From Flavobacterium sp. BFFFF1 (GTDB taxonomy: Bacteria; Bacteroidota; Bacteroidia; Flavobacteriales; Flavobacteriaceae), in contig NZ_NKJE01000019.1 in NCBI RefSeq assembly GCF_002256285.1, forward strand, positions 1 through 64,000: a stretch of 64,000 nt of DNA. Reading direction: 5' to 3'. The notes under the pieces are model-generated. The model was not told the DNA's origin. It did not search any database and saw only the letters and a program-made list of their open reading frames with translations. How positions within the stretch are numbered: position 1 is the stretch's first letter; each line of letters begins with the position of its first letter. Shown here one piece after another: positions 4,492-52,944 of the stretch. The position numbers and the translations under genes were made by a program.

Positions 4492-4497
4492 ATTTTA

Positions 4498-4525
4498 GTC
4501 GAAAGTTGAAAGTCAAAAGTCGAAA
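4498..4525 (+). repeat. Four tandem 7-bp units GTCGAAA-like, just upstream of sufB
   Basis: gtcgaaa gttgaaa gtcaaaa gtcgaaa. Confidence 0.9.
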
Positions 4526-4633
4526 GTGGTGACCACTTTGTAATTTAACTTTCTGAATTATTAGTTAACATTTGCCAATCTTTTTGACTTTAGCTCCGTT
4601 CGGCTGCGTCGGGGATTTTCTTTATACGTTAGA

Positions 4634-30294: not shown

Positions 30295-33111
30295 ATGAAG
30301 TTTTCGCTTTCCCTCGCCTTCCTTTTCACATTCCCGGCCATGTTCGCCCAGCAGCCATCACAATTCGTAAACCCTTTAATCGGTACCGGAGGCCATGGAC
30401 ACACTTTCCCCGGCGCAACATTACCATTCGGCATGGTACAGCTATCACCGGACACCAGAATCGACGGAAGCTGGGACGGTTGTTCCGGATATCATTATTC
30501 AGATAACGTGATTTACGGCTTTTCACATACCCACCTCAACGGTACCGGCGTGTCTGATTTCGGCGACATCATGCTGATGCCCACAATGGGAGAACCGTCA
30601 CTGGTTAATACAGCATATTCATCCGCTTTTTCTCACAATACCGAGAAAACTTCAGCAGGATTTTATGCCGTAAAACTCGAAAAAGACAATATCGATGTCG
30701 CGTTAACCACCACCAACAGGGTTGGTTTACACCAATACACATTCAATAAAGACGGACAGGCAAACATTATCCTCGATTTAAACCATCGCGATAAGCTGCT
30801 GATGGGCGAAGTGCGTGTTATCAATAAAAAGACCATTGAAGTGTTGAGAAGAAGCGAAGTGTGGGCCCGCGATCAGTATGTTTACGCACGCATCGAATTC
30901 AGCAAACCGATGAAAATCACCAAAGTCAATAACAATGCGTTTGCACCAGCCAAAACCACGGATAAATTTTTCGCAGGCAGCTTATTGGCGCTGAGTTTCT
31001 CCAAAGAGGTAAAAAAAGGAGACAAAATTTTAATCAAAGTATCAATTTCACCTACGGGCTACGAAGGTGCTGAAAAAAACATGTCGGAGCTCAAAGGCTG
31101 GGATTTTGAGAAAACAAAAAAAAGCGCCGAAACCACCTGGAACAAAGAACTATCAAAAATCGAAGTAACTTCCGGCGATAAAAATAAGAAAACAATCTTC
31201 TATACAGCATTGTATCATACGATGGTGCAGCCGAACATTGCGCAGGACGTAGACGGCAAATACCGTGGCCGTGATAACGAAATCCACACCGCCGTTGGTT
31301 TTGATTATTATTCGGTATTCTCGCTTTGGGACACGTTCCGTGCAGCGCATCCGTTGTACACATTAATTGAAAAGAAACGCACCGCCGACTTCATCAATAC
31401 GTTCATCAAACAGTATGAGCAAGGCGGCAGATTGCCTGTCTGGGAACTGGCGTCTAATGAGACTGATTGCATGATTGGCTATCATTCTGTTTCGGTAATT
31501 GCCGATGCGATGGTCAAAGGAATTTCAGGATTTGATTACGAAAAAGCCTTTGAGGCCGCAAAGCACAGTGCGATGCTAAACCACCTTGGTTTAGATGCCT
31601 ACAAAAAAAATGGTTTTATCGCGATTGACGATGAACATGAAAGCGTCTCCAAAACACTCGAATATGCTTACGACGATTGGTGTATCGCACAAATGGCGCT
31701 GATCCTGAACAAGCCAAAAGACTACAGCTATTTTGAAAAACGCTCGCAAAACTGGAAAAATATTTTTGACAATAAAACCGGGTTTATGCGGCCAAAGAAA
31801 AACGGCGGCTGGGAAACCCCTTTTGACCCACGCGAAGTGAGTAACAATTTCACCGAAGGCAATTCCTGGCAATACTCCTTTTTCGTGCCGCAAAACATCT
31901 GGGGCATAATCCGCGCCTACGGTGGCGCTGATAAATTTGAAGCCAAACTTGACGAAATGTTTGCCGCGCCTTCCGCAACGACCGGGCGCGAGCAGGTGGA
32001 TATCACAGGATTAATCGGTCAATATGCGCATGGTAACGAGCCAAGCCATCATATGGCCTACTTGTACAATTACGTCGGAAAACCGGAAAAGACGGCAAAA
32101 AAAGTAGACTTTATCCTCAATAATTTCTACAAAAACGCGCCTGATGGACTGATTGGCAATGAAGACTGCGGCCAGATGAGCGCATGGTATGTTTTAAGTT
32201 CAATGGGTATTTACGCGGTCTCGCCGGGATACCCGAAATGGAGTGTTACGGAACCAAATTTCGAAATCATAAAAGTAAATTTCGAAGACGGTACATCAGC
32301 AAGTATTTCAAAACACTTGGGAATCAGTTACATGGAAACATTTGGCATTTTAGACGCCAAAAGAGATCTTGGTAAAGGCGCTGCATCGGTAATAAACATC
32401 ACACCGGTTCCTGTTTTTAATGCAAAAGCAAAGACATTTTCTGATAAAATGCAGGTTGGCATCAATGCTAACGATGGGGAAGACAAGGTCTTTTACAATA
32501 TCCAAAACGCGAAAACCAATAATTCCGCTTTCAAACCCTTTATAGGACCGTTCGACATCGAGGAAAGCAGTACGGTGAGCGCTTACACCATAAGAAAAGG
32601 CGTTTCCAGCGACACGATTTCAGCACAATACTTTAAAAAACCGAACAATTACACCGTAAACATTATCTCCAAATACAACAGCCAGTACAATGCCGGCGGA
32701 CCTGACGGACTAATCGATCGTGTATTCGGCAATGAAAACTGGCGCAAAGGCGACTGGCAGGGTTATCAATCTCAGGATTTCGAGGCGGTTATAGATCTGC
32801 AGGGCAAAAGAAGGGTTTCTGAAGTTTCAGCAAATTTCCTCCAGGATTCCCGTTCATGGATTTTGATGCCGGTTAAAGTAGACTTTTATACCTCTGACGA
32901 CAACATCAATTTTACGCTGGTAAAAACGATTGACAATACACTCGATCCCAAAATCTCAGAAACAAAAATTATAGATTTTAAAAGCGCCATTGCTCCCGCG
33001 ATTACACGCTATATTAAGGTTAAGGCATATAATTATGGCCCGCTTCCAGAATGGCATCAGGGTTATGGCGGGGATGCTTTTATTTTCGTGGATGAGATTA
33101 CTGTAAAATAG
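30295..33111 (+). CDS. GH92 family glycosyl hydrolase (alpha-mannosidase-like) with C-terminal F5/8 type C-like domain
   Basis: FVNPLIGTGGHGHTFPGATLPFGMVQLSPDT; LPVWELASNETDCMIGYHSVSVIADA; GNEPSHHMAYLYNYVGKP. Signal peptide supports ATG 30295. Confidence 0.93.
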   Translation: MKFSLSLAFLFTFPAMFAQQPSQFVNPLIGTGGHGHTFPGATLPFGMVQLSPDTRIDGSWDGCSGYHYSDNVIYGFSHTHLNGTGVSDFGDIMLMPTMGEPSLVNTAYSSAFSHNTEKTSAGFYAVKLEKDNIDVALTTTNRVGLHQYTFNKDGQANIILDLNHRDKLLMGEVRVINKKTIEVLRRSEVWARDQYVYARIEFSKPMKITKVNNNAFAPAKTTDKFFAGSLLALSFSKEVKKGDKILIKVSISPTGYEGAEKNMSELKGWDFEKTKKSAETTWNKELSKIEVTSGDKNKKTIFYTALYHTMVQPNIAQDVDGKYRGRDNEIHTAVGFDYYSVFSLWDTFRAAHPLYTLIEKKRTADFINTFIKQYEQGGRLPVWELASNETDCMIGYHSVSVIADAMVKGISGFDYEKAFEAAKHSAMLNHLGLDAYKKNGFIAIDDEHESVSKTLEYAYDDWCIAQMALILNKPKDYSYFEKRSQNWKNIFDNKTGFMRPKKNGGWETPFDPREVSNNFTEGNSWQYSFFVPQNIWGIIRAYGGADKFEAKLDEMFAAPSATTGREQVDITGLIGQYAHGNEPSHHMAYLYNYVGKPEKTAKKVDFILNNFYKNAPDGLIGNEDCGQMSAWYVLSSMGIYAVSPGYPKWSVTEPNFEIIKVNFEDGTSASISKHLGISYMETFGILDAKRDLGKGAASVINITPVPVFNAKAKTFSDKMQVGINANDGEDKVFYNIQNAKTNNSAFKPFIGPFDIEESSTVSAYTIRKGVSSDTISAQYFKKPNNYTVNIISKYNSQYNAGGPDGLIDRVFGNENWRKGDWQGYQSQDFEAVIDLQGKRRVSEVSANFLQDSRSWILMPVKVDFYTSDDNINFTLVKTIDNTLDPKISETKIIDFKSAIAPAITRYIKVKAYNYGPLPEWHQGYGGDAFIFVDEITVK

Positions 33112-33153
33112 TCAAAAGTCGAAAGTCAAAAGTCGAAAGTCGAAAGTCGAAAG
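33111..33153 (+). repeat. Six tandem 7-bp units GTC(G/A)AAA
   Basis: gtcaaaa gtcgaaa gtcaaaa gtcgaaa gtcgaaa gtcgaaa g between GH92 and the amidohydrolase gene. Confidence 0.95.
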
Positions 33154-38044: not shown

Positions 38045-39340
38045 ATGAGAATTGGCCCTTTTTTATGTCTTGTCCTTTCGGTTTTTGGCTTTTGCCAAAT
38101 GGCCGCACAGGATTTGCCTATAGACACCACTGACACGGGCTATCGCACCGAGCTGGAAACGCTTTTCCTAAAACGCACTGCCGCTACCAAAGCCGTACTG
38201 TCCAAAATCGACAACCGGCAGGTACGCCGCGAGGTCCTTGAAAGCTATACGGAACACGCGGGAGAATTCCTGGAACTGATCCAAAAAGGCGTCTTTATTC
38301 GGGATAAGAAATATTCAGGCCTACTGGAAAACATCCTCGAAAAAATAAAACACGCCAATCCCGACCAGCATTTTGACGACATGAAACTCCTGATTGCCGC
38401 CAGCAACAATTCGAATGCCTATAACATCGGTAACGACTTTGTCGTGTTCAATCTGCCCATCATCTTTGATATTGTCAATGAATATGAACTCGCTTTTATC
38501 CTAAGTCATGAAATGGCACACCAAAAACTGAACCATGTCCTGCAATCCTTGGTCCGCAGCAAGGAAATCAGCAATTCTGACGAAGTAAAATCCAGGACCA
38601 GGGCGATCGCACGGCAGAAGTACAACCAAGGAAAACAGGCATCCGAACTCTACAAGCAAATCATTTACGGCAGCCGCGAAGAAAGCCGTAAAAAGGAGGT
38701 ACAGGCCGATTCACTGGGCTATATATTCTTTAGCAAAACGTATCCTGATTACAGGTACCAGGCCGTAAAAACGCTCGAAGTCTTAAAGAATATCGACACC
38801 CCAAAAGATTCATTGTTGTTGGCCGATTACCAGGAAATTTTTGCAAAACACCAGTTAACCTTCAAACCGGAATGGATTGCCGATGGTGAAAACCACTACA
38901 GCTACCAAAAGGACAAGTCATGGAACGTTGACTCGTTACGCACCCATCCCAACTGCGATCAACGCATCGTTTTCCTGAAGGAACGCTTTAAAATTAACGA
39001 CAGCGATGTGAAGGATGTCAGCCCGGCAACTTTCCAAGACCTGAAAAAAGACAGCGCCAGCGAGTATATCTTCGCACTGTATTTTATCGAGGAATATGGC
39101 GAATCGCTTTACAACACATTATTATCCCTGAAAAAAAATCCCGATGATGCGTTCCTGAAAAAAATGCTGCACGATAATTTGTTGAAGATCAGCATCGCCC
39201 GAAATAATTTCACCGCCAACAAATATGTCAGGACCGAAGATCCCGAGTATTCAGACAGTTACAACCGCTTCCTGCGATTCGTCGGAAACCTTAGAAAAAG
39301 CGAACTAAACCAAATTATAGAAACATTTAAACAACCATGA
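38045..39340 (+). CDS. M48 family metallopeptidase (secreted)
   Basis: Signal peptide; AFILSHEMAHQKLNH zinc motif; EVQADSLGYIFF. Confidence 0.9.
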   Translation: MRIGPFLCLVLSVFGFCQMAAQDLPIDTTDTGYRTELETLFLKRTAATKAVLSKIDNRQVRREVLESYTEHAGEFLELIQKGVFIRDKKYSGLLENILEKIKHANPDQHFDDMKLLIAASNNSNAYNIGNDFVVFNLPIIFDIVNEYELAFILSHEMAHQKLNHVLQSLVRSKEISNSDEVKSRTRAIARQKYNQGKQASELYKQIIYGSREESRKKEVQADSLGYIFFSKTYPDYRYQAVKTLEVLKNIDTPKDSLLLADYQEIFAKHQLTFKPEWIADGENHYSYQKDKSWNVDSLRTHPNCDQRIVFLKERFKINDSDVKDVSPATFQDLKKDSASEYIFALYFIEEYGESLYNTLLSLKKNPDDAFLKKMLHDNLLKISIARNNFTANKYVRTEDPEYSDSYNRFLRFVGNLRKSELNQIIETFKQP

Positions 39341-40884
39341 TGAGAAAATTACTATTGCTTTTATTTTTCGTAACAAGCGTGACGGTTTCGGCACAGACCA
39401 CAAAACTAAGCGCACTTTCCAGCGCCGATTTCCTGAGTTCAAAAATCGTCTATGACGACAACGGCAACGATGTCTACGGCTATTTCCTGCTCTATCAAAA
39501 AGACAAAAAAAGCAAGGGTAATTTTGAGCTCGAATATGTATTGCTTGATAAGAACCTGAATAAAATGGCATCCGGAACGTTTGCGCAGCAGCGCGCCACC
39601 TCCATGTTCGTCGATTTTACGACGGAACTGCTGTACGTGAAAAAACTCGGCGACAAGATTTACTTCAGCCTTGGTGATGTCATGAAGGGTTATGAGGACA
39701 TTTACGATATGTTCGGGTTGTACGGCTTAAGAACATTGGACCTCAAGGATTTCAAGGTTTCTGAAGTCACGTATATGCGTAATTTCGCGCCTGCTTACGG
39801 CGATATTACCAAAATGAAACGAAAGGAAATGGACGAATTTCAATACATGAAGCCGACGCAGAACAACGGATTTGTCGTATTTGAAGAATCGGTAATGGAC
39901 ATTTCCATGCGCGTCTTTATGGGTAAAAGAAATGCCAGGAACATCCGGAAATTCCGCTTTTACGACATGGACCTGAAGGAGAAATGGAGTTATGAATACA
40001 AGGAAACCGGTGACAAGTCCTTTTATGAATACAACTATTTCGGGGGTGAAGGCAATGACATGGTGTTTTTCAAGGAATTTTATGAGAAAGCGAGCGACCG
40101 CCACAGCGACATTTCGTATGAATTCTTTGATGTACAGAGCGGAAAAAAGAAATTTGAAATCCGTGTAAACGATACACAAAACCTGCTGCGCGTCAGGAGG
40201 ATACTGTTTGAGGAAAACAAGGTGATCGTTTTTGCTGCAACGAACGATTTCAACAACAAGGATAACTTTGCAGCGGACAAGATTACGGGCTACGCTAAAA
40301 TCACTTACGACCGCGCTACAGGAAAAGAGTTGGGCAGGAGCTATTTCAAATGGGAGCAACTGGCTGACAAACTGGAAATCGATGCCTACGGAAAGATTAA
40401 GTCTTATGGTTTCATCCACTTCCTGGACTACAAACGCACGACGGACGGCAAAACGATCGTCATCGGCGAAGGCTTTTCGGTTAAGGGTGGTTCTGAAATC
40501 CGCGACCTGTTTACGTTTGTTTTTGACGACAACATGAAATTGGTCGATTACCAGGTTATCAACAAACTTAAAAACGGGGTACCGGCAATCGGTTACGGAA
40601 CGTACCTGCAGTCCATCGGAGCATTTGATTATATGTATTCGCAAAAGCTTCCCGGCGATGGCTATGTCTTTTATTATGCCGACAATGAAAAGAAATCAAA
40701 GAAAAATCCGTCATGGGTACTGGGGATTGTGACGTATGTCGATGGGGCTTTCAGCACCCAGAAGGTGACACTGACCACCCAAAAAGGCCAAATCTATCCG
40801 CTAAAGGCCAAAAACGGTTACATCTTACTGCGCGAAGACACCGATAAGGATTCGGAATTGCGCCTTGAGAAAATCAACTACTAA
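39337..40884 (+). CDS. Uncharacterised secreted protein (paralogue A)
   Basis: 515 aa, signal peptide; homologous along its length to the next gene; ATGA overlap with the M48 gene. Confidence 0.8.
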   Translation: MMRKLLLLLFFVTSVTVSAQTTKLSALSSADFLSSKIVYDDNGNDVYGYFLLYQKDKKSKGNFELEYVLLDKNLNKMASGTFAQQRATSMFVDFTTELLYVKKLGDKIYFSLGDVMKGYEDIYDMFGLYGLRTLDLKDFKVSEVTYMRNFAPAYGDITKMKRKEMDEFQYMKPTQNNGFVVFEESVMDISMRVFMGKRNARNIRKFRFYDMDLKEKWSYEYKETGDKSFYEYNYFGGEGNDMVFFKEFYEKASDRHSDISYEFFDVQSGKKKFEIRVNDTQNLLRVRRILFEENKVIVFAATNDFNNKDNFAADKITGYAKITYDRATGKELGRSYFKWEQLADKLEIDAYGKIKSYGFIHFLDYKRTTDGKTIVIGEGFSVKGGSEIRDLFTFVFDDNMKLVDYQVINKLKNGVPAIGYGTYLQSIGAFDYMYSQKLPGDGYVFYYADNEKKSKKNPSWVLGIVTYVDGAFSTQKVTLTTQKGQIYPLKAKNGYILLREDTDKDSELRLEKINY

Positions 40885-40902: not shown

Positions 40903-42438
40903 ATGAAAAAAATCGTAATGCTATATCTATTGGCGGTAAATGTCTGCTCCTTTGCACAAACTGCAAAGCTTAGTGCGCTTTCTAACAACAAATTCCTTGC
41001 GTCAGAAATTGTCTATGATGAAAATGGCGATGATGTTTATGGCTATTTCCTGCTGTATGACGCGGGCGATGAAAGCAAGGGGATGTACCGATATGAATAT
41101 GTATTGCTGGATAAAAACCTGAACAAGATGGCATCGGGGGACTTTTTGCAGGAAAGGGTTGATTCGATTTCCATCATGGCCGACTATGTGACCACTAAAC
41201 CCCTGTACGTGATGAAGAGGGGCGAATTCTTGTATTTTAACTTTCCCGACACCATCAAGGGCGATGAGATCATGTATTCCTTAAGGACCCTTTCCCTGAA
41301 AGATTTCAAGGTTTCCGAACCGACATACATCAGGAACAATTCCCGGGTCCAGCAAAACGTCGGGCGATTTAAACGGAAGGACATGGAAGAATTTCAATAC
41401 CTCGTCCCTACAAAAAATGGCGGCTTTTTAGTTTATGACGAAACGCTCATGGACGCTTCTATGCGTATTTTCATGGGTAGGGGTGCTGCCAAAACCGTAA
41501 AGTGCTTCCGTTTTTTCGATGTGGATTTAAAGGAAAAATGGCGGTTCGAATATGATCATTCCGATGAAAATACCTACTACGATTATTACTACCTCAACGG
41601 AGGTGGAAACGACATGGTCTTCGTAAAATCGCAATTCCAAAAATCCGGAAATAAACGTAAGACACATGAATATGAAGTTATTGATGCACAAACCGGCATT
41701 AAAAAATTCAGCTTAAGCTCATCCGACCCACAAAACCTGTTGCGCTTCAAGAAATGGATCTTTGAGGACGATAAAATCGTTATTTATGCTGCCATCACCA
41801 ACTTGAATGACAAAGATGTCTTTTTGGATAAGGAAGTAATGGGATATGTTAAAATCATGTTTGACAGGAAAACTGGAAAGGAACTCGGAAGGGATTATTT
41901 CAGGTGGACGGATCTCTCTGATAAGTTCCCCATCGATGCGTTCGGTAAAATTAAAGACTATGGCTTCATACAGTTTTTAGACTTTAACCGCACAACGGAC
42001 GGAAAAACGATTGTTATCGGAGAAGGATATTCAAAAGAGCGCAACTCCATAATCAAGGACTTATTCGTTTTTGTATTTGACGACCAAATGAAAGTAGTGG
42101 ACTACCACAAGGTTGAAAAACACCAAAACGACGGACCGATCAGTGCGCATGGCGGATACCTTCAGCAAATCGGTGCATTCGACTACATGTACTCCCAAAC
42201 GCTACCCGGCGGCGGTTCTGTGTTCTATTATACGGATAACGAAAACAAATCGGTTCGTAAACCGTCGTGGGTTTTAGGCGTCATCACCTATTCCGAAAAT
42301 AAGTTTGATTTTCAAAAAGTTACCTTAACCACCCAAAAAGGCCAAATCTATCCGCTAAAGGCCAAAAACGGTTACATCTTACTCCGCGAAGACACCGATA
42401 AAGATTCGGAGTTGCGGCTTGAGAAAATCAACTACTGA
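40903..42438 (+). CDS. Uncharacterised secreted protein (paralogue B)
   Basis: 511 aa, signal peptide; shared blocks DENGDDVYGYFLLY, YVLLDKNLNKMASG, RTTDGKTIVIGEG, QIGAFDYMYSQ. Confidence 0.8.
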   Translation: MKKIVMLYLLAVNVCSFAQTAKLSALSNNKFLASEIVYDENGDDVYGYFLLYDAGDESKGMYRYEYVLLDKNLNKMASGDFLQERVDSISIMADYVTTKPLYVMKRGEFLYFNFPDTIKGDEIMYSLRTLSLKDFKVSEPTYIRNNSRVQQNVGRFKRKDMEEFQYLVPTKNGGFLVYDETLMDASMRIFMGRGAAKTVKCFRFFDVDLKEKWRFEYDHSDENTYYDYYYLNGGGNDMVFVKSQFQKSGNKRKTHEYEVIDAQTGIKKFSLSSSDPQNLLRFKKWIFEDDKIVIYAAITNLNDKDVFLDKEVMGYVKIMFDRKTGKELGRDYFRWTDLSDKFPIDAFGKIKDYGFIQFLDFNRTTDGKTIVIGEGYSKERNSIIKDLFVFVFDDQMKVVDYHKVEKHQNDGPISAHGGYLQQIGAFDYMYSQTLPGGGSVFYYTDNENKSVRKPSWVLGVITYSENKFDFQKVTLTTQKGQIYPLKAKNGYILLREDTDKDSELRLEKINY

Positions 42439-42485: not shown

Positions 42486-42791
42486 AATACTATGGCTTCC
42501 CGATCTCTGCAGTAACATGTCAATTCAGCACTTAAAACTGAAACTTTAACAAAATATCCGGATTTCCCGTATTGAAGACATTTCGCTATTTCGTAGGGAC
42601 CGCAATGTCCCCTTCCCTGAAGGCAAAGTACAATTTCCGCCCGACATATCTTTACGCGAAATCCATACTTTTTCTTAAATTAAGATGAGAGGCTATGCCA
42701 CTTATGACTACAGGATAATAGCAGACCATAGAAAACGAACCAACCGGAAAGCGCTTGTAGTTAAACCTTAATCTGAAGTCACTGCTTTCCC

Positions 42792-42917
42792 CACGGAAGT
42801 GCAACCTGCCGACACGGAAGCATTCGACTTTGACACGGAAGCATTTGTCGGGCAGACGGAAGCATTTGTCGGGCAGACGGAAGCATTTATATTTCACACG
42901 GAAGCATTCATCAGGGC
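42792..42917 (+). repeat. Six-unit 21-bp tandem array, consensus sACGGAAGCATT + 9 variable bp
   Basis: Units start at 42792, 42813, 42834, 42855, 42876 and 42897; all contain ACGGAAG; units 3 and 4 differ only at base 1. Confidence 0.95.
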
Positions 42918-42994
42918 ATGTTTATGGCTTCCCACCCGAAAAAAACCTTTTCCTTCAGCACGTTGCCCCTAACCGAAGTATTTTCACAAACGGA

Positions 42995-45900
42995 TTACTT
43001 TTGGCTTTGGCCCTTTGGCGTTCCTCCAGCGGATAAAAACTGCCCGCTCAACGCATCATAGACCAGTAGCAGGTCATTTGAATGCCCCTCGTCATCGAAA
43101 AATTTTTCCCACGTGCTTAAGGGCTCCCAGATGCAGGTGCCCTTGCCCCTGCCGTTGGCTACTTCAAATCCAATTTTGTTAACCTCACGCTTCAATTGGG
43201 AATATTCCACCACAATCAGATCTTTGTTGTAACACGCCGCCAGGTCATTCATATTGTCGCGCAAATCGTCCAGCGTCCCGTGCCATTTGGGGTAATAAGA
43301 CAGTCCAATCACGTCAAAACGCGCGCCGCGCTTCAGCATTCCGTCCAGATACTCCACACATTCATGGTTTTGTCCGCCCAGCGCGAGGTGCAGCATCACC
43401 GGGGTTTTCGGGTCTACCGATTTTACCGCAGCGGTACCGGCCTTGAACAACTGTGCCATGCCATCCGGGTTGTTTACATTGCCATCCGGCCAGACGAGCC
43501 CGTGGTTAATTTCGTTGCCCACCTGCACCATATCGGGTAAGGTACCCTGTGCTTTTAATTCCGTAAGAACCCGAACGGTGTAGTCATACAACGCCTTCTT
43601 TAGCGCTTCGAAAGACAGGTTTTCCCACGCCTCCGGCTTGTACTGCTTGCCCGGATCAGCCCAATAGTCGCTGTAATGGAAGTCCAGCAACAGTTTCATA
43701 CCAGCAGCTTTCACACGCTTGGCCATGGCTTTGGTATTTTCAAGATCGCAAAAACCCTTCCCAGGTGAATAGCCCTTCGCGGTAGCGGGATTGTTGAAAA
43801 TCCTAAGGCGGACATAATTCATTCCGTGGTCTTTCAGGATCTGTATCGCATCCTTTTCTACCCCTTTATCCGAAAATTTCATGCCGCGCGCTTCGAGCTC
43901 CGGAAGGAAAGAAATGTCTGCGCCTATCATTTTGTCAATAGTAACCGCGTTCAAGGCAGCGCCTTTCAGCTCATACTTTTGATCCACCGTAACCACGGCC
44001 GCTTTTTGCGGAAGAACCGTCACAATGTCTGTCGACCCGGTGTATAAGCCTGCCGCTTTTGCGTCAAAATGGATCAGCCCCTCTGTTTTCCCCGACTGTA
44101 CGATGACCTGGCATTTGCCGTTGAATAGGGAACGCTGCCAGGCGCCGTCCGGACATTGGTCCGGCTCATGGCTGCTCGGGTCGCCATTACCTACCCCAAT
44201 GATCTTCGCATCGCCGGTTAGGTAAAACCGGATCATATTGTCGGCATCAGGCACTTCGCGGCCTTCCCGGTCTACTGCCGAGATATTAATCACGGTAACG
44301 TCTTTTCCGTCGGCCATCATCGTCGTTTTATAAGGTGTCATCACCACTTCCACCGCGGATCCGGTGGTCTCGACGGAAGCGGTGAGTTTTTTGCCTTTTT
44401 TATACGCGACAGCTTCCAGTTTTCCAGGCTGGTACTGTACCGTCCAGTTCAGGTGCCCATTGCGGGGCATGTCCTTTTTGCCAAGGGTCTTGCCATTCAG
44501 GAACAATTCGACGTTGTCGGCATTGGAGTTCACCCAAACTTCCACATCGTCATTCGGTTTGTCCCAATGCCGCTTGTCCGGCCAGTTCCAATGCGGGGAA
44601 ATGTGCAGTACATCTTTATCGGTCCACCAGCTTTGGTAGTAGTAATAGATGTTTTTTGGAAAACCACAGACGTCCATGACCCCGAAATGTGAGTTCACAT
44701 TCGGCCATTTATATGGGGTCGGTTCCCCGCGGTAATCCAGGCCTGTCCAGATAAAACCCCCGAGCCAATAGTCGTTTTCGGCGGCGAGTTTCCACCAGTC
44801 TTCCGCCTTACTGGCCCACCATGGCGCCGTAATGTCCTGGTCCGGGACATACGCACGGATGGTGTCTTTTTCATAAATGCCTCTCGTGGTCACGGTGCTG
44901 CCCATCTCTGTCCCCAGCAACGGTTGGTCAGGATGGTCTTTGTGGTAGGCGGCCACATCAAACTGCCGGTAGTTGAATCCGCGCACGGGAATTACCTCGT
45001 TGACGCCTTTAAAGACATTCGGGAGGTCAGCGGCATAAGTACTGGTCCGTGTCGGGTCATATTGTTTTTGTTGTGCCAATAGCGTCTGGGCAATTTTCCG
45101 CCCTGTATCATTGGCCTGTATCATCCCTTCCTCATTGCCGATGCTCCAAAGAAATACAGAAGCGTGATTGCGGTCTCGTTTTAACAGTCTGGTGAACTGG
45201 TCCCTTGATTCCTTGCCGCTGTTCAGCAAACGCTGCTCATCGAGGACCAGCATCCCCAGTGAGTCGCAGGCGTCAAGCAGTTCCGGCGTCGGGGCATTGT
45301 GGCTTGTGCGGTACGCATTGCTGCCCATGTTTTTCAACAGGTTGATGCGGTAGTATTGCAGGTAATCCGCCAGTGCACTGCCCACACCGGCATGATCCTG
45401 ATGGTTGTTCGTGCCCTTGATCTTCACGTTTTTCCAGTTCAGGAAGACGCCCTCTTTGCGGATTTCAATATGGCGGAAGCCAAATTTCACCGTCTTGGAG
45501 TCCGTTGCTTTCCCGTTTTGGGTAACTTCAACCACCACGCGGTACAGGTAGGGATTTTCCAGTGACCAAAGTATGGGTTGGGGCACGTTAATGGTTTGTG
45601 TAATGGTCATTTCACCATTCACGTCCAGCGTAAAGTTTTCAGGCTTTGAGCGGCCAACGACTTTGCCGTTTCGGTCTTTTAAATAGGCCGTTACCGCGGC
45701 GGTGGAAGCCGTGAAATTTTCGTTGATCACTTCCGTACGGACGGTTAAGGTTGATTTTCCCGGTGTCACATCTGCGGAAGCGAAAACGCCATCGTTCTTG
45801 ATATGCAGGTTTTTAAAACTGTTCAGCCATACGTGGCGGTAAATGCCGGCGCCCTCATAAAACCAGCCTTCGTATTGTGTGGCATCGACCCGCACGGTAA

Positions 45901-46423
45901 CGACATTGTCGCCGTCAAAGTTCAGGACATCGGTAATGTCATAGTGTTCGCCTACGTAGCCGCTTTTGTTGTTGCCCAGGTAAAATCCGTTGACCCAAAT
46001 GTTCGCATCGCGGAAAATCCCATCGAACTGCAGTTCAAACCGCTGCCCGTCCTGAGGCTTTGCCACCGTAAAATGCTTGCGGTACCACCCGATACTGGTT
46101 TCGGGAAACAATCCGCCGACGGGCTTGTACCCGTGCGACTGTACATCAAAGTTGTCTACATTGACAAATGGAAGGTGGACCGCCCAATCGTGCGGCAGGT
46201 CTACTTTTGCCCATGCCGTATCGATAAACTTCGGATCGATTGCGGTGCCGGCGCCCTTTCCTGACTTGGAAAAGACCGTGGCGATGGAATAATTAAAATC
46301 TTTTTCGGCATTCGCAGCATGTCCAAAATGGAACTTCCACCCCTCGTCAAAATTGAGGTGGGTGCGCTGGGAAACGGAGCTTATGGAAAAGCAAAGGCAA
46401 AGGGATAAAATAAAGTACCGCAT
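42995..46423 (-). CDS. GH2 (beta-galactosidase-like) - GH53 (endo-beta-1,4-galactanase-like) fusion, secreted
   Basis: 1142 aa. N-terminal GH2: DDNHQDHAG-type region, VFLWSIGNEEG, PLLGTEMGSTVTTRG. C-terminal ~345 aa GH53: GADISFLPELEARGMKF, NYVRLRIFNNP, LLLDFHYSDYWADPGKQ, VQVGNEINHGLVWPDG, VIGLSYYPKWHG, VVEYSQ. Confidence 0.92.
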   Translation of the reverse strand: MRYFILSLCLCFSISSVSQRTHLNFDEGWKFHFGHAANAEKDFNYSIATVFSKSGKGAGTAIDPKFIDTAWAKVDLPHDWAVHLPFVNVDNFDVQSHGYKPVGGLFPETSIGWYRKHFTVAKPQDGQRFELQFDGIFRDANIWVNGFYLGNNKSGYVGEHYDITDVLNFDGDNVVTVRVDATQYEGWFYEGAGIYRHVWLNSFKNLHIKNDGVFASADVTPGKSTLTVRTEVINENFTASTAAVTAYLKDRNGKVVGRSKPENFTLDVNGEMTITQTINVPQPILWSLENPYLYRVVVEVTQNGKATDSKTVKFGFRHIEIRKEGVFLNWKNVKIKGTNNHQDHAGVGSALADYLQYYRINLLKNMGSNAYRTSHNAPTPELLDACDSLGMLVLDEQRLLNSGKESRDQFTRLLKRDRNHASVFLWSIGNEEGMIQANDTGRKIAQTLLAQQKQYDPTRTSTYAADLPNVFKGVNEVIPVRGFNYRQFDVAAYHKDHPDQPLLGTEMGSTVTTRGIYEKDTIRAYVPDQDITAPWWASKAEDWWKLAAENDYWLGGFIWTGLDYRGEPTPYKWPNVNSHFGVMDVCGFPKNIYYYYQSWWTDKDVLHISPHWNWPDKRHWDKPNDDVEVWVNSNADNVELFLNGKTLGKKDMPRNGHLNWTVQYQPGKLEAVAYKKGKKLTASVETTGSAVEVVMTPYKTTMMADGKDVTVINISAVDREGREVPDADNMIRFYLTGDAKIIGVGNGDPSSHEPDQCPDGAWQRSLFNGKCQVIVQSGKTEGLIHFDAKAAGLYTGSTDIVTVLPQKAAVVTVDQKYELKGAALNAVTIDKMIGADISFLPELEARGMKFSDKGVEKDAIQILKDHGMNYVRLRIFNNPATAKGYSPGKGFCDLENTKAMAKRVKAAGMKLLLDFHYSDYWADPGKQYKPEAWENLSFEALKKALYDYTVRVLTELKAQGTLPDMVQVGNEINHGLVWPDGNVNNPDGMAQLFKAGTAAVKSVDPKTPVMLHLALGGQNHECVEYLDGMLKRGARFDVIGLSYYPKWHGTLDDLRDNMNDLAACYNKDLIVVEYSQLKREVNKIGFEVANGRGKGTCIWEPLSTWEKFFDDEGHSNDLLLVYDALSGQFLSAGGTPKGQSQK

Positions 46424-52802: not shown

Positions 52803-52944
52803 TAAATCGCTACTGGCCTGAGGGATGGAAGCGGCATCCTTTTTTGAGGCACCCTTCGGCCTCGCTCAGGGTGACAACACCGGCGGTCCGGGCGGCGAAA
52901 AAAAGATATAGCGGACAGCCCGACGCTGTTGCACTAGCGATTTA
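52803..52944 (+). repeat. Dispersed intergenic element, copy B, bounded by 10-bp inverted repeats
   Basis: TAAATCGCTA (52803-52812) and TAGCGATTTA (52935-52944) enclose GCGGCATCCTTTT...GAAAAAAAGATATAGCGGACAGC; nested CACCCT...AGGGTG hairpin at 52850-52873. Confidence 0.65.

Follow-up and report, generated by a model that had tools for sequence, protein, structure and literature searches.

Plasmid partition centromeres and iterons, for example ParR/parC, are helically phased direct repeats which lie beside the gene of the protein that binds them. In the type III toxin–antitoxin systems ToxIN, AbiQ, and CptIN a small protein gene is preceded by a tandem repeat array (the repeat RNA). Imperfect tandem repeats are also found in the BrickBuilt MITE of Porphyromonas gingivalis, which has units of 23 nt corresponding to about two helical turns, many intergenic copies, and a conserved tail (PMC4596501).

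The window that was analyzed here, i.e., the whole stretch of 64,000 nucleotides from Flavobacterium sp. BFFFF1, contains a tandem array of a comparable appearance. The earlier note had described it from the letters alone as six head-to-tail 21-bp units between two convergent 3′ ends, with an exact 11-mer on both sides, and all of these elements are present exactly as claimed. The parts of the region are as follows:

40903–42438, plus strand: left neighbor gene of 511 aa, 3′ end toward the array
42491–42501, plus strand: left 11-mer TATGGCTTCCC, directly 3′ of a terminator-like hairpin
about 42531–42690, no strand assigned: decayed, MITE-like dispersed repeat, an element of ∼140–150 bp with 20 other copies in the same genome (L005–L008, L028–L043)
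42792–42917, plus strand: tandem array of six 21-bp units, each with the core (C/G)ACGGAAG(C) and a variable part
42899–42933, plus strand: terminal inverted pair of the array, with the last-unit core CGGAAGC (42899–42905), CATCAGGGCAT (42909–42919), exactly 7 nt, and the inverted core GCTTCCC (42927–42933)
42995–46423, minus strand: right neighbor gene of 1142 aa, 3′ end toward the array

The units start at 42792, 42813, 42834, 42855, 42876, and 42897, and TRF agrees with this reading (42812–42908, period 21, 82% matches; 42835–42888, 100%). The array is the sole period-21 row of TRF in the 64 kb, and when 650-bp tiles over the whole window were inspected for any period of 12–60, only two tiles, both over the array, had a self-match of at least 55%. 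The variable parts of the units are 9–14 bp long and often identical from unit to unit. By its appearance the right neighbor gene codes for a glycoside hydrolase. The left neighbor has a tandem paralog (39337–40884, 515 aa), and the near-identical 3′ ends of both genes (96% over 109 bp) suggest gene conversion between them. Elsewhere the window contains a Flavo-1 RNA (RF01705, 52 bits, 52811–52929, plus strand) and AGTCGAA 7-bp tandem repeats at 4497–4527 and 33110–33153.

The 11-mer TATGGCTTCCC occurs exactly twice in the window, with 0.01 occurrences expected for that chosen 11-mer, and it had been proposed that the enclosed ∼420 bp could be a small mobile element with a target duplication. 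This proposal had to be given up. By BLAST against the own genome the segment is composed of two independent dispersed repeats, the MITE-like copy on the left and the 21-bp array on the right. The right-hand 11-mer (42923–42933) includes the array's inverted tail, a direct repeat of this kind is absent at all other arrays of the genome, and the left 11-mer is most likely coincidental. We call the left element MITE-like because its alignment has the terminal inverted repeats TTAACAAAATATnCGG...CCGTA and TTACGG...TTTTTCTTAA and its better copies reach out to TTGTCCTAAAATAA. No full-length match to it was found in the 60 relatives searched; the three matches obtained there are a stretch of 36–38 bp (query 15–55) outside the element. 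The two hairpins and GCCCGACA, which had been noted inside the ∼420-bp segment, do exist but lie inside this separate element, which is unrelated to the array system and merely enclosed by the 11-bp repeat.

The array is not confined to this site. Related arrays are found in the same genome on the contigs C14, C2, C36, C13, and C22, a BLAST search with the C14 array retrieved G031 at 2e-15 as well as others in the genus, and a covariance model comprising two units and the tail detected related arrays in 22/400 Flavobacterium genomes (the model was built including the window sequence, so that the window's own score proves nothing). Seven of the 40 array loci adjoin a gene of 231 aa, which is divergent from the array. 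This gene is rare in the genus (13/300 genomes), and nearly every copy of it has 21-bp repeats upstream, often with quite a different unit. The linked gene family is the main point of this report and lay outside what could be seen from the window sequence alone.

By scanning 85,462 species genomes we obtained 80 relatives of the linked gene. They occur in Flavobacterium and Chryseobacterium and, further afield, in Sunxiuqinia, Chitinophagaceae, Ignavibacteria, and a Kapaibacterium MAG, the last of which has many copies. An unbiased period scan (12–60 bp, 650 bp upstream) could be applied to the 76 relatives with enough upstream sequence, and a period of 21 or 42 was the best one in 71 of them (50 loci at 21 and 21 loci at 42), compared with 5/661 other windows from the same loci. 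Fisher's test gives a p value of about 2e-86 for this linkage, which is uncorrected for the relatedness of the loci and only indicative. The period is constant, and the unit sequences are wholly different between the loci. The similarity of the units rises with the identity of the proteins (r = 0.72, against 0.01 in the reverse-strand control). At less than about 50% protein identity the units are no longer related to one another, with the period still kept. Additional copies of the gene in G411 are also linked to arrays, and one gene copy in G001 (L187) contains three stop codons and has no array. In one branch the array lies downstream of the gene, again with a period of 21/42 (L316 at C8:17374 of the own genome and L307 in G286). 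No conserved neighbor gene of the linked gene was found at all, and no viral relatives were found. These data show that across Bacteroidota and relatives a gene for a protein of ∼215–230 aa and an exact 21-bp array form a two-part genetic element, with the array usually directly upstream of the gene's promoter. We found no description of this pairing, of the family name, or of 21-bp repeats in Bacteroidetes in the open-access literature and, as far as this literature shows, the partnership is previously undescribed.

By sequence score the linked gene is not a member of the NCBIfam family PQLLE (NF052641; the C28 gene scores 21.9 bits and the C2 gene gives no match at a curated cut-off of 80 bits), and it is a remote relative of this family. 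Arrays are also present beside PQLLE members above the cut-off and beside other remote relatives. Four longer relatives of 318–392 aa (L196, L202, L297, and L298), most of which have 21-bp arrays, are extended at the C terminus by a region resembling a beta or Fn3-type domain. The protein model is all-helical (pLDDT 89), and the protein is composed of repeated halves as judged by hhalign (E 3e-5, 72% probability), i.e., it contains an internal duplication. It has no match in Pfam, in PADLOC, or among PDB sequences, the fold search gave nothing significant, and no transposase or nuclease signature was found in it. A Bacteroidetes-type promoter motif is located between array and gene on the gene strand at 20/68 loci (9.7 expected), which points to a promoter of the gene's own, and on the array strand this motif is not enriched (5 vs. 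9.8 expected).

The window array itself has no adjoining linked gene, its neighbors being the 511-aa and 1142-aa genes, and is thus an orphan. Its unit is similar to the array of the C2 gene (0.63) and less so to the arrays of the C28 gene (0.45) and C18 gene (0.42). Over the own-genome orphans C49, C14, C36, C13, and C22 the values are 0.53–0.72 to the C2-gene array vs. 0.37–0.45 to the arrays of the C28 and C18 genes, and the C28-gene array has orphans of its own on C9 and C41. In G178 two orphans match the array of one gene and not that of the other, and in G286 an orphan looks like the array that follows the gene L307 when the two are compared by eye. As the orphans match the array of one gene only, the arrays fall into cognate sets, each of which belongs to a single gene. 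Every gene copy has a unit sequence of its own, and for some of them additional orphans with this unit occur at other places in the genome; the window array is such an orphan and belongs to the gene at C2:26987–27667.

In Flavobacterium the arrays end with CAGGGCAT, followed by exactly 7 nt and the inverted core. This inverted core varies together with the unit core (83.6% of the cells are paired); the covariation score was equalled in 1/500 shuffles and is mostly due to one base pair. The last unit and the tail are almost identical among the orphans of the own genome, and the copies share no flanks past the tail. Across the gene-linked arrays an inverted repeat in the tail is present in 10/68 cases (3.4 expected), and as a universal feature it is unsupported outside mainly Flavobacterium and Sunxiuqinia. 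A strong polarity of array decay was likewise considered and turned out to be weak only (27 vs. 18 arrays). Several Flavobacterium genomes have an array and no detectable linked gene, thus arrays persist without it.

At many loci of other Flavobacterium species (L138, L143, L144, L146, L151, L158, L160, L162, and L163) the array is followed on its 3′ side by a promoter TATATTTG, a conserved stretch ending in GTT, and then varied accessory genes, which carry a complementary RYYYAAC box and an attC-like site on their 3′ side. These genes are predicted to be integron-type cassettes with no recognizable integron integrase; the cut-off of TIGR02249 was reached in 0/40 genomes tested. At orthologous array sites of two species (L141/L145 and L143/L146) different accessory genes follow, suggesting that accessory genes are exchanged at the site that follows the array. 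The unit number also differs between L141 and L145 (G383 vs. G433). The condition under which the earlier note would have counted as refuted does not hold, because of this difference and because the array recurs at further loci of the same genome and in further species. A role as promoter elements for the genes that follow them applies to the arrays at many loci in other Flavobacterium species, but not at four of the five C2-type orphans of the own genome, which sit between convergent genes.

Among the readings of the array listed in the earlier note a multi-site protein-binding array is now the leading mechanism. We suggest, with a probability of about 45%, that the array is bound as DNA with one protein per two helical turns. 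The linked protein would recognize its cognate repeat with about one protomer per 21 bp, i.e., two helical turns, which would place all sites on one face of the DNA. The resulting nucleoprotein array might control the linked gene's own promoter, and the protein might bind or maintain the orphan arrays in trans. The constant period despite unrelated units suits such a helical phasing. Nevertheless, DNA binding is our reading of a protein without any significant match to a known sequence family or fold, the arrays persist in several Flavobacterium genomes without a detectable gene, promoter control makes no sense at four of the five C2-type orphans, one branch has its array on the downstream side of the gene, and the tail hairpin with its covariation in Flavobacterium might also speak for RNA. 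More tentatively, we propose a new kind of gene–array system, in which a helical protein maintains its private 21-bp array and seeds it across the chromosome, with the unit sequence free and the two-turn period fixed.

The spread of orphans which carry the unit of one gene copy, agree almost completely in their last unit and tail, and mostly sit at convergent-gene sites also fits a mobile or amplifying element whose protein is a mobility or amplification factor and whose orphans are nonautonomous copies, all the more as tandem repeats followed by a tail are also known from BrickBuilt (PMC4596501). We consider this rather unlikely, as the orphans of the own genome are without target duplication or terminal repeats and share no flanks beyond the tail, and the protein is without the signature of a transposase or nuclease. 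A noncoding RNA is regarded as another unlikely reading, in the specific form that the array is transcribed to a repeat RNA of ∼200 nt which is bound by the helical protein as in type III toxin–antitoxin systems. The combination of an array with a single small gene, the patchy distribution (13/300 genomes) with many copies in some genomes, and the Flavobacterium tail hairpin with its pair-preserving change would agree with this. On the contrary, the array strand is not enriched in promoter motifs, the inverted tail is not general, the fold of the window tail is no more stable than those of shuffled sequences (z −1.0 and −0.6), the window array has no Rfam match, the protein is outside Pfam and PADLOC, and the units diverge within an array.

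The divergence of the units and the arrays kept without a gene in some genomes would be expected of a plain degenerating minisatellite without function, which had been the conservative alternative. The array is more than an isolated, decaying minisatellite, and the 21-bp period bound to one gene family across phyla (71/76 vs. 5/661) together with the cognate sets makes a functionless repeat very improbable. Least credible is a gene with coding heptad repeats, 21 bp being seven codons (e.g., NASVSQF repeats on the minus strand). The C2-gene array is open for 111 aa in the direction of the gene; however, there are 108 open frames over the arrays vs. 95 expected under column shuffling, a period-3 signal is absent in 59 arrays, and the frame of the window array reaches a stop after five codons. 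With no frame kept under selection and no third-position variation signal this candidate was rejected, and the original description of a noncoding array of repeats plus variable segments holds. The DNA-binding array stays our preferred reading. What matters beyond it is that in several bacterial groups a single gene family, whose function is unassigned, goes together with an array in which the period is fixed and the sequence free, and that stray cognate arrays exist as well. This association is strong and directly testable. It offers a way into a protein superfamily that has no name so far, and it poses the question of how a protein remains matched to a repeat that changes so fast and what role the array plays.

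Of the described systems, BrickBuilt and type III toxin–antitoxin systems come nearest in architecture, but defining features of both that were examined are absent here. The array shares with CRISPR a repeat plus a variable part, but the whole unit is just 21 bp, the variable parts are 9–14 bp and not unique spacers, and searches of Pfam and PADLOC assign the linked gene to no Cas family. Like type III toxin–antitoxin systems it combines a single small protein gene with tandem repeats upstream of it; here, however, the units are more diverged, the array strand has no promoter signal, and the protein, all-helical in the model, has no Pfam or PADLOC match to a described toxin family. The phased direct repeats beside a protein gene, with a putative binding of the protein, resemble ParR/parC and iterons, whereas the present system is chromosomal, with no motor gene, no conserved neighbor, and a protein without a known DNA-binding fold. 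With BrickBuilt, from the same phylum, the arrays have in common imperfect tandem units of about two helical turns, many intergenic copies, and a conserved tail (PMC4596501). They differ in the unit of 21 bp instead of 23 bp, in the lack of terminal inverted repeats and target duplication at the copies of the own genome, and in the link to a protein gene family, which the BrickBuilt text, as read here, does not describe (PMC4596501). The PQLLE family (NF052641), for which the papers found describe neither a function nor an array, differs in that the Flavobacterium genes score below its cut-off; nevertheless, it is the remote superfamily of the linked gene, and the PQLLE members tested carry 21-bp arrays as well.
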